A stretch of 61,488 nucleotides of DNA, taken from positions 1-61,488 of the forward strand of contig NZ_KB898051.1 in the NCBI RefSeq assembly GCF_000377345.1, written 5' to 3'. Shown piece after piece: positions 34,775 through 43,192 of this stretch (positions are counted from its first letter, which is position 1; every line of letters starts with the position of its first letter). This DNA is from Thioalkalivibrio sp. ALJ16. Its GTDB lineage: Bacteria > Pseudomonadota > Gammaproteobacteria > Ectothiorhodospirales > Ectothiorhodospiraceae. The notes under the pieces were generated by a model that was given only the letters and a program-made list of their open reading frames with translations, did not search any database and was not told the DNA's origin. The position numbers and the translations under genes are program-made.

Positions 34775-36340
<1,566 letters not shown>

Positions 36341-36370
36341 GCGGGGCCTCGAAATCGCGTCAAAACGATC

Positions 36371-36387
36371 ATTATATCGAACGTTCG
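36371..36387 (-). promoter_or_regulatory. purH promoter -10 with CGAACGTTCG operator-like palindrome
   Basis: On the minus strand a perfect TATAAT (36376-36371) is preceded by the 10-bp palindrome CGAACGTTCG (36378-36387). The -35 region is poor. The palindrome has the AACGTT centre of LacI/PurR-family operators and lies where a repressor would block RNA polymerase. No repressor gene is in the window. Confidence 0.55.
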
Positions 36388-36462
36388 TGGCCGGTGGCCC
36401 GGCCCGAGCCCGGGCCGGCGCACCTGGCCTCAGCTTGTAATTTTTGCGCAAAACCTTCAGGG

Positions 36463-36817
36463 TATAGAAACGATTTCGGACACAACGCCCGCGTTCAGAC
36501 GCAGCGCGAGGCGCCGTAAACGATCCCCGAGCCAGGCGGGATGGGCCCGCCAGACCACGGCTCGGCATCCGGGTAACGAATGACCCTCCGGATGTACAGG
36601 ATGAACCGGCCATGCCGGTGCCGGGCGCTATTACAACGCGCCCGTTGCATTGCTTCCCGAACACCAGGCCTGGCCTGGGCGGATCGGGCGAATGGCGAGA
36701 CCGCCGGGATATGCGGGGGTCGCGGTTCTCTGCGTTTGCGCGGTGTTGTGCCGACGGATCGGCCCCGGGCCGTCCGTTCACGCTTACGACAGCAGCAAAA
36801 AGCCAAGAGGAATCAGC
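36463..36817 (+). promoter_or_regulatory. long structured leader of the betaine operon
   Basis: Between a -10-like TATAGA (36463-36468) and the first ATG (36818) lie six stem-loops: H1 CCGAGCC/GGCTCGG (36527-36533 with 36559-36565) enclosing GGCGGG/CCCGCC; H2 CATCCGG/CCGGATG (36566-36594); H3 ACCGGC/GCCGGT (36605-36619); H4 CGGGCGC/GCGCCCG (36622-36644); H5 CCAGGC/GCCTGG (36664-36678); H6 ACGGA-t-CGGCC/GGCCGTCCGT (36754-36777), about 40 nt before the start codon. No T tract follows any stem. No known riboswitch consensus (glycine, SAM, SAH) was found. Confidence 0.55.
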
Positions 36818-37636
36818 ATGTCCGCGAACATCAAGAACGATCAGGATTTCGGCGAGAAGCCGACCGAGCGTCGCGATACCGAGAACTATCGCAACGAGTA
36901 CACCACCGGTTTCGTCGACAAGTGGGATGACCTGATCGACTGGGACAACCGCGCCAAGAGCGAAGGCACCTTCTTCATCGAAGAACTGAAGAAGCGCGGT
37001 GCCAAGCGAGTGCTGGATGTGGCGGCCGGTACCGGCTTCCATTCCGTGCAGCTGCGCGAGGCGGGCTTCGACGTGGTCACGGCCGACGGCAGCCCGGAGA
37101 TGTTGGCCAAGGCGTTCGAGAACGGTCGCAAGCGGGGTCACATCCTGCGCACCGTGCAGGCCGACTGGCGCATGCTGAACCGCGACATCTACGGCCGCTA
37201 CGACGCGGTGGTCTGCCTGGGTAACTCCTTTACCCACCTGTTCAACGAACACGACCGCCGCAAGGCCCTGGCCGAGTTCTACTCCGCCCTGAACCACGAT
37301 GGTGTGCTGATCCTCGACCAGCGCAACTACGACACCATTATGGACCACGGCTACTCGTCCAAGCATACGTACTACTACTGCGGCGACGACGTTCAGGTGC
37401 AGCCGGCGCATGTGGATGAGGGTCTGGCCCGCTTCCAGTACCGCTTCCCGGATGGCTCCGAGTACTTTCTGAACATGTTCCCGCTGCGCAAGGCCTATGT
37501 GCGTCGCCTGATGCGCGAGGTCGGCTTCCAGAAGATCGAGACCTACGGTGACTTCCAGGAGACCTATCGCGAGACGGATCCGGACTTCTTTATTCACGTC
37601 GCCGACAAGCGTTACATCGAGGACGAGAACCGATGA
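36818..37636 (+). CDS. gsmT: glycine/sarcosine N-methyltransferase
   Basis: The 272-residue SAM-dependent enzyme converts glycine to sarcosine and then dimethylglycine (EC 2.1.1.156), the first half of betaine synthesis in halophiles. It opens with [26 protein letters not shown] and carries motif [29 protein letters not shown] and [12 protein letters not shown]. Length and text match halophile GSMT enzymes such as that of Halorhodospira (from memory). The start at 36818 follows AAGAGG; the frame is open upstream but lacks a comparable site. It overlaps the second enzyme by 4 bp. Confidence 0.93.
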
Positions 37637-38481
37637 GCAACCAGTATTCCGACGTCGTCGAGACGGCGCGCGACTACTACAACAGCGAAGACGCCGATAC
37701 CTTCTACAAGCTGGTGTGGGGTGGCGAAGACCTGCACATCGGCATGTACGAGTACCAGGGCGAGCCGATCGGTGACGCCAGCCGGCGCACCGTCGCGCAC
37801 ATGTCCGACCTGCTCGGCGAGCCGCAGCCGGAATGGCGCGTGCTCGACATGGGCGCCGGGTACGGCGGCGTGGCCCGCTACCTGGTCGAGAACTACGGCT
37901 GTGACGTGACCGCGCTCAACCTCTCCGAGAGGGAGAACGAGCGGGATCGCGAGATCAACAAGGCGCGTCATCTCGATCACAAGATCACCGTGGTCGACGG
38001 CTCCTTCGAGAAAGTCGACGAGCCGGATGCCTCCTACGATGTCGTCTGGTCCGAGGACTCGTTCCTGCACAGCCAGAACGACAAGAAGAAGGAAGTGATC
38101 AAGGAGGCCGCGCGCGTGCTGAAGCCGGGTGGCTGGCTGATCTTTACCGATCCGATGCAGACCGACAACTGCCCGGATGGCGTGCTCGATCCGATCCTGG
38201 CCCGCATCCACCTCGACTCGCTGGCCAGCCCCTCGCTGTATCGCGAGGCGGCCAAGGAAGCGGGGCTCTACGAGGTTTCCTTCGAGGAGCACTCCAACCA
38301 GATCGCGACGCATTACGGCCGCGTGAAGCAGGAGCTGGAGTCGCGCGAAGAAGAGCTGCGTGGCTACATCTCCCAGGACTACATCGACCGCATGAAGCAG
38401 GGTCTGCAGCACTGGGTCGACGGCGGCAACTCCGGATATCTGACCTGGGGCATCTTCCGCTTCCGCAAGCCGGCTGAATAG
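37633..38481 (+). CDS. sdmT: sarcosine/dimethylglycine N-methyltransferase
   Basis: The 282-residue enzyme methylates sarcosine and dimethylglycine to glycine betaine (EC 2.1.1.157). It shows [26 protein letters not shown] at the N terminus, motif [21 protein letters not shown], and [12 protein letters not shown], the features of halophile SDMT. Its ATG overlaps the upstream TGA (ATGA), so both enzymes are made in a fixed ratio from one message. The last SAM-binding step gives betaine, a compatible solute. The convergent bpt gene follows at 27 bp with a shared stem. Confidence 0.94.

Positions 38482-39400: not shown

Positions 39401-43192
<3,792 letters not shown>

Follow-up and report, generated by a model that had tools for sequence, protein, structure and literature searches.

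Soda Lake RNA (the smtA motif, HRC-65-1) is, according to the available text of its description, a structured RNA of more than 350 nt that is restricted to Thioalkalivibrio, shows strong covariation and lies between the divergent genes smtA and purH (PMC11109978). Unpublished Northern blots mentioned in the same source place it upstream of smtA, in the same orientation. It stands in print without an assigned pathway, because smtA had the appearance of an ordinary methyltransferase, a member of too large a class, and cis-regulation was thought unlikely by its authors because its length exceeds that of most riboswitch classes (PMC11109978). Two further RNAs are of interest for comparison. The proX motif (SRC-29-1), as far as its available description goes, is a riboswitch candidate found at a betaine-transporter gene, mainly in Spiribacter (PMC8632094), and the Na+ riboswitch (DUF1646 motif) is described as controlling osmotic-stress genes (PMC9337991).

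The locus described here belongs to a 61,488-nt stretch of DNA of Thioalkalivibrio sp. ALJ16 ('the window' refers to this whole stretch) and concerns the leader of gsmT, the first gene of a betaine-synthesis pair. As with Soda Lake RNA, the leader occupies the intergenic region between purH and a divergent methyltransferase gene (smtA in the publication, gsmT here), is restricted to Thioalkalivibrio and contains several covarying stems, here without per-pair significance on a tree-based null. The published RNA runs in the direction of smtA, and the orientation of the promoter-like box at gsmT agrees with this. The size is a borderline case, more than 350 nt in the publication and here about 344 nt from the probable transcription start or 383 nt from the box; the likeness is one of published description, not of stem-by-stem correspondence. 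Judging by place, genus, direction and covariation, the gsmT leader is very probably Soda Lake RNA, and the place together with the class I methyltransferase type makes it very probable that the published smtA is gsmT. While the printed account gives smtA no pathway and doubts cis-regulation, the gene is gsmT here. As the leader very probably corresponds to an orphan already in print, the novelty of the RNA itself is low; what is new is the link with betaine genes, the common promoter box and the independent leaders of other halophiles.

The gsmT leader shares with the proX motif a position before a betaine gene, a halophilic host and a narrow distribution (PMC8632094). The two differ in that the proX gene encodes a transporter and that stem P2 of the proX motif can occlude its ribosome-binding site; this comparison, too, is by description. 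With the Na+ riboswitch the likeness lies in RNA control of osmotic-stress genes (PMC9337991), and the difference in that no Rfam family matches the window.

Locus, promoter-like box and leader architecture

The principal features of the locus are as follows (group A1, used for the alignments, is defined below).

34775–36340, minus strand: purH, above the cut-off of NCBIfam TIGR00355/PRK00881; divergent neighbour of the leader
36371–36376, minus strand: TATAAT, by its sequence the likely −10 element of purH and distinct from the promoter of gsmT
36435–36468, plus strand: conserved box TTGTAAT-N15-TCAGGGTATAGA, mismatch 0.079, with TTGTAA at 36435 and TATAGA at 36463
36486–36513, plus strand: first hairpin H1, CGCC..GGCG with inner GCGU/ACGC, from the consensus fold of 15 leaders
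36523–36602, plus strand: three-way junction model P1–P3, from the consensus structure of 15 leaders
within 36523–36602, plus strand: P1, AUCC/GGAU, with one variable pair (AU in 6, UA in 4 and unpaired in 3 of 13)
36527–36565, plus strand: P2, CCGAGCC/GGCUCGG enclosing GGCGGG/CCCGCC, with the conserved loop AGACCAC
36566–36594, plus strand: P3, CAUCCGG/CCGGAUG, with compensatory UA–CG changes, 100% paired
36605–36619, plus strand: P4, ACCGGC/GCCGGU, weaker, 79.5% paired
36622–36644, plus strand: P5, CGGGCGC/GCGCCCG, with three pairs changed on both sides, 98.9% paired
36649–36785, plus strand: 3′ half, which folds in the full-leader consensus, variable in sequence and nearly constant in length
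36805–36811, plus strand: Shine–Dalgarno sequence AAGAGGA of gsmT, invariant in the alignment of 15
36818–37636, plus strand: gsmT, glycine/sarcosine N-methyltransferase (NF051855, 503.3 bits, cut-off 350)
37633–38481, plus strand: sdmT, sarcosine/dimethylglycine N-methyltransferase (best match NF041675, 417.7 bits, under the cut-off of 550)

The enzyme assignments agree with structural homologues: GsmT matches the solved GSMT structure PDB 5h02 (E 1.5e-124) and SdmT matches PDB 2o57 (E 4.3e-66). The GsmT of the window shares 92–100% identity with the GsmT proteins encoded at twelve Thioalkalivibrio loci. Past gsmT, the gene order is sdmT, an arginyl-tRNA-protein transferase gene on the opposite strand, and metH. 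The latter (methionine synthase, window 39401–43192), located just past sdmT and the reversed gene, could plausibly supply the methyl groups that betaine synthesis needs. The divergence of purH and gsmT around 36341–36817 is kept in 14/14 A1 relatives; in the purH promoter region, CATTATA and CGAA are invariant among 13 aligned upstream regions.

The two hexamers of the box, TTGAAA-like and TATA-like, are 22 nt apart, and transcription probably starts near 36474–36477. A sigma-70 promoter of consensus spacing was not detected in 36300–36900. Nor was any promoter detected near the ATG in the same interval, a start within about 40 nt of the ATG being incompatible with the long leader proposed in the first-pass annotation. 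The 22-nt spacing differs from that of a sigma-70 promoter, and we know of no standard sigma factor that it would match.

The box is exact in the window and in 12 of its 14 A1 relatives, the other two having two mismatches, as well as in 8/10 loci of group A2 (other members of the same GTDB genus), 3/8 loci of group B (Ectothiorhodospira group) and 2/10 loci of group C (Halorhodospira-like). The remaining C leaders carry it in the same place with one to three mismatches, and two B leaders have it with two mismatches; within 520 nt upstream, a copy is missing from three of the eight B leaders and from all seven leaders of group D (Aquisalimonas-like). Searched across nine genomes, the exact pattern TTGWAAT-N15-TCARRGTA was found once in each of seven, always at gsmT, and was not found in the other two. 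A promoter regulon was rejected, the exact box being present only at gsmT in these nine genomes. Six one-mismatch matches were located elsewhere in them, none at gsmT, and a reversed control pattern matched twice. In the leader L013 (T. thiocyanoxidans ARh2), part of the box (TTGTA followed by TTTTGCGCAAAAC) is tandemly duplicated, an arrangement that would suit a protein-binding site.

The leader measures about 344–345 nt to the ATG from the probable start, 355 nt from TATAGA and 383 nt from TTGTAA. The first-pass annotation had described a TATAGA followed by about 350 nt of structured sequence before the first ATG, and the positions of TATAGA (36463–36468) and of the gsmT ATG (36818) bear this out. 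All of the stem-loops it had named, including the doubly nested one, were located in the leader; the last hairpin, whose end it placed 40 nt ahead of the start codon, is GACGG/CCGUC, with its end at 36774 and thus 43 nt from the ATG. The single-sequence fold has an energy of −165.6 kcal/mol, compared with −149.7 ± 5.9 for shuffled sequences (z −2.68; 1/100 as low). There is no evident expression platform, because no intrinsic-terminator-like site was found in 36300–36900 and the ribosome-binding site is predicted to be mostly open in A1 (mean 0.63 unpaired). Another genome of this family contains a 36-base segment 86% identical to window 36479–36514 (L096; G036 contig 52, 19747–19782); its gsmT is on a different contig, and the match may be due to chance.

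Rfam 15 gave no match in the window at gathering scores. The earlier failure to fit the glycine, SAM and SAH riboswitch consensus was confirmed, as the search of the leader with Rfam 15, run at lenient scores as well, yielded no known riboswitch class above its gathering score. No known family was found in the gsmT leaders of relatives either, with 14 loci searched at gathering scores and 10 at lenient scores; the sub-threshold snoRNA- and sRNA-like matches of the lenient scans carry no weight. The SAH riboswitch (RF01057), which has no match inside the gsmT leader of the window, occurs in 2/14 related loci, both of Aquisalimonas, roughly 3 kb past the beginning of gsmT (L019:8017–8097 and L027:8022–8102).

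Covariation, conservation and distribution of the element

Group A1 consists of the window and 14 relatives (L002–L013, L082 and L102), giving 15 leaders with 13 distinct rows; same-strain copies from two collections were merged. A six-helix model of 37 pairs has 94.8% of its pair cells paired, compared with 91.4% in shuffles, and contains 22 doubly changed cells, where shuffles average 8.3 and none of 500 reaches that number; when the structure is slid by 1–3 columns, at most four such cells remain. The number of pairs with a double change, 7 of 37 against 4.8 in shuffles (43/500 as high), is a weak excess, and further pair types, 17 against 19.0, show none. P2 is 100% paired, with compensatory GC–AU changes, and P1 is weaker than P2 and P3.

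A second null, in which columns were shuffled with row relations kept and the alignment was refolded, was used for consensus energies and double changes. The 5′ part of the leader has a consensus energy of −127.5, compared with −88.6 ± 5.3 (0/30 nulls as low), and 39 doubly changed cells, the null having a mean of 9.1 and a maximum of 20 in 30 trials. For the full leader, 74 doubly changed cells were counted, against a null maximum of 66. The first-pass annotation had suggested aligning related leaders and looking for covarying base pairs, and the answer is divided: whole-structure counts beat their controls, but none of the pairs of the A1 leader reached significance in a per-pair G-test against tree-based null alignments, a test that has little power with 13 close sequences and still counts against the structure. 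The pair counts themselves lean towards structure, because the A1 structure was drawn after the consensus fold and the folds of groups C and D come from the same alignments. The folded RNA ahead of gsmT is real, more than chance, and the description of a structured leader of a betaine-synthesis operon stands; the RNA switch or thermo- or osmo-sensing element that the first-pass annotation had considered is hypothetical.

Conservation is unevenly distributed along the region. In A1, the mean pairwise mismatch is 0.455 in the upstream spacer, 0.079 in the box (36431–36468), 0.133 in the first hairpin and 0.16 in P1–P3, with 0.036 in the 3′ strand and loop of P2; it rises to 0.28–0.29 in P4–P5 and 0.369 in the 3′ half. 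After this variable half, mismatch drops to 0.114 at the ribosome-binding site. Four-fold degenerate sites of gsmT have a mismatch of 0.244, so that the box, H1 and P1–P3 fall below this level and P4–P5 and the 3′ half above it. Between the 3′ end of the aligned core and the ATG there are 162–173 nt across the leaders.

A covariance model of the A1 element (R1) found one copy in each of 15/47 genomes of the order, all of one genus and 15/15 directly before gsmT; relatives of gsmT at E 1e-60 are present in 37/47 of these genomes. Among 369 genomes drawn from the class, there were two matches, one in the genome of the window and one in another member of its genus. R1 did not match the A2 leaders with filters on (10 loci) or off (8 loci). 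A core common to all lineages was rejected: across 60 sources, the best R1 match outside its own group had E 0.061 and lay elsewhere in the window. With filters off, the best E anywhere in 10 sources was 0.24.

Leaders of gsmT in other lineages

The compared groups, which include metagenome bins, comprise ten A2 loci with a different leader, eight B loci, ten C loci and seven D loci. Further fetched leaders (L022, L024, L026, L028, L030, L031, L128–L130, L133, L134, L154 and L156–L163) belong to none of the tested groups, and the upstream regions of L033–L081 are outside the comparison. A2 has divergent purH and gsmT in 8/10 loci, the other two being without purH inside the flank covered.

C leaders (L017, L018, L020, L023, L025, L029, L032, L139, L140 and L151): invariant GACCCGGA and CACGCC stretches
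D leaders (L019, L021, L027, L146, L148, L150 and L153): invariant ACCUGC and CCAGGU

The ten C leaders contain a distinct element, about 122 nt long, in which 93.1% of the cells are paired and 14 are doubly changed, compared with 5.5 doubly changed cells in shuffles (0/500 as high). A model of this element (R2) found one copy in each of 10/54 genomes of that order, all at gsmT, which is itself present at E 1e-90 in 27/54; in 65 sources, no R2 match beyond these ten leaders improved on E 0.18. The seven D leaders contain a third element, with 13 doubly changed cells against 4.4 (0/500 as high) and at most six in slid versions. In the per-pair tree test, no pair was significant in D and 1/32 pairs was significant in C (E 0.04 and 0.03 with two nulls). 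The gsmT leaders of Halorhodospira-like and Aquisalimonas-like bacteria thus carry other, unrelated covarying RNAs. These RNAs were not found mentioned in the papers listed from one open-access library, and no mention of Halorhodospira was found in the available text of PMC11109978 and PMC8632094.

The consensus energies of the A2 leaders, the C leaders and the last 260 nt of the B leaders beat all 30 column-shuffled nulls. The counts of doubly changed cells stayed within the range of the null: 93 in A2 (maximum 98), 10 and 13 in its two subgroups (maxima 10 and 22), 39 in whole C leaders (maximum 47) and 32 in the last 260 nt of B (maximum 45). The mean predicted openness of the ribosome-binding site is 0.63 in A1, 0.52 in C, 0.42 in D, 0.37 in A2 and 0.23 in B, differing by lineage without a common pattern. 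Two Ectothiorhodospira-group leaders (L127 and L132) contain a repeat that forms a hairpin, its arms resembling CCCGC..GCGGG; it may be a dispersed repeat that was inserted there.

Possible function of the leader

The consulted parts of two studies bear on Thioalkalivibrio physiology. In T. versutus D301, betaine increases from 0.2 to 8.1 μmol/mg protein, about 40-fold, between 0.4 and 3.0 M Na+, and the mRNAs of the two methyltransferases show no significant change over this salt range (PMC9062515). The threshold of that study was a log2 change above 2 (4-fold), so smaller mRNA shifts may exist; its authors propose post-translational control. Control after transcription is plausible because betaine rises about 40-fold while the mRNAs are unchanged (PMC9062515). 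In T. nitratis ALJ2, both gsmT and sdmT are slightly upregulated in the cold (PMC8092127), and low temperature may be a further influence on the pair.

The reading that we favour, and consider slightly more probable than its negation, is that of a cis-acting 5′ leader, very probably Soda Lake RNA, which controls gsmT–sdmT after transcription has started. Transcription would begin at the conserved box (36435–36468), and the RNA would fold into the first hairpin, the three-way junction and two further hairpins. We infer that it then runs into the gsmT message and acts in cis on the translation or stability of the gsmT–sdmT mRNA, in which case betaine synthesis would change without a change in mRNA level; candidate signals are the osmotic or ionic state, betaine and the supply of methyl groups. 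A cis role is favoured because the position and the distance to the ATG are constant, no terminator-like site was found in 36300–36900 and other structured leaders occur at gsmT in other lineages. Evidence against this reading comes from the doubts of the discoverers (PMC11109978), the predicted open ribosome-binding site of A1, the per-pair tree test without a significant pair and the narrowness of the element, which has no match in the A2 leaders. The activity of GsmT and SdmT themselves may also respond to salt or to SAH.

Several other explanations account for parts of these observations. A passive structured 5′ UTR that only guards an abundant mRNA from decay, or that is bound by a regulator protein or cut by RNase III, without any sensing, is rather unlikely. 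It agrees with the consensus folds, which put a hairpin near the probable 5′ end in A1, A2 and C, with a 3′ half that drifts in sequence at a constant length, and with the lack of a common pattern in ribosome-binding-site openness; the nearly invariant P2 loop, however, exceeds the needs of a stability hairpin. That same loop and strand, at 0.036 mismatch between covarying stems in a junction model, would suit a ligand-binding riboswitch in which the P1–P3 junction would bind betaine, SAM, SAH, glycine or an ion as the aptamer and the 3′ half would serve as the expression platform, and the proX motif (PMC8632094) and Na+ riboswitches (PMC9337991), as described in the available texts, are precedents. 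Riboswitch status of the leader is possible, but a riboswitch of this particular design is unlikely: no Rfam class matches, no terminator was found, a single gene is served in the genomes searched, and the core is not common to other lineages, though one fixed ligand pocket would predict that. An independent large noncoding RNA, encoded upstream of gsmT by chance, is close to the published view and draws on the length, on the elaborate structure and on what the discoverers themselves think (PMC11109978, available text). It appears quite unlikely in view of the 15/15 copies lying directly before gsmT at a core-to-ATG distance of 162–173 nt, the absence of a terminator-like site from 36300–36900, and the other structured gsmT leaders of other lineages, several of them behind the same box.

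Two narrower explanations fare worse. A leader peptide or upstream open frame in place of RNA structure could be represented by an 11-codon ATG frame at 36541, yet this frame was found in only 7/15 leaders and no other frame (ATG with at least five codons, or GTG/TTG with a good Shine–Dalgarno sequence) is common to all 15, which renders this very improbable. A degenerate c-di-GMP-II riboswitch at 36614–36714 is suggested by an Rfam match below threshold, which scores 24.7 bits where 40 are required for gathering and has E 0.017 over the 491 bases searched. It is extremely improbable, as a larger search, of 34 kb from six A1 relatives, gave no match at E up to 2 and the matched GCUAU reads GCUGC in 10/15 rows.

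With the preferred reading of a cis-acting leader, the structured RNA is a candidate answer to the puzzle of T. versutus, in which betaine rises about 40-fold with enzyme mRNAs not significantly changed, and offers an alternative, through translation or stability, to the proposed post-translational control (PMC9062515, available text). Through the link with a glycine/sarcosine methyltransferase, a published orphan RNA gains a pathway and testable ligands, and the Halorhodospira-like and Aquisalimonas-like leaders add further covarying elements at the same gene. A wider proposal, that Soda Lake RNA is a post-transcriptional salt switch of betaine synthesis and that unrelated RNA switches evolved at gsmT in other halophiles, is speculative and at present doubtful. 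If true, it would mean that RNA control of one osmolyte pathway was invented repeatedly, in Halorhodospira-like and Aquisalimonas-like bacteria and perhaps in Ectothiorhodospira and group A2.
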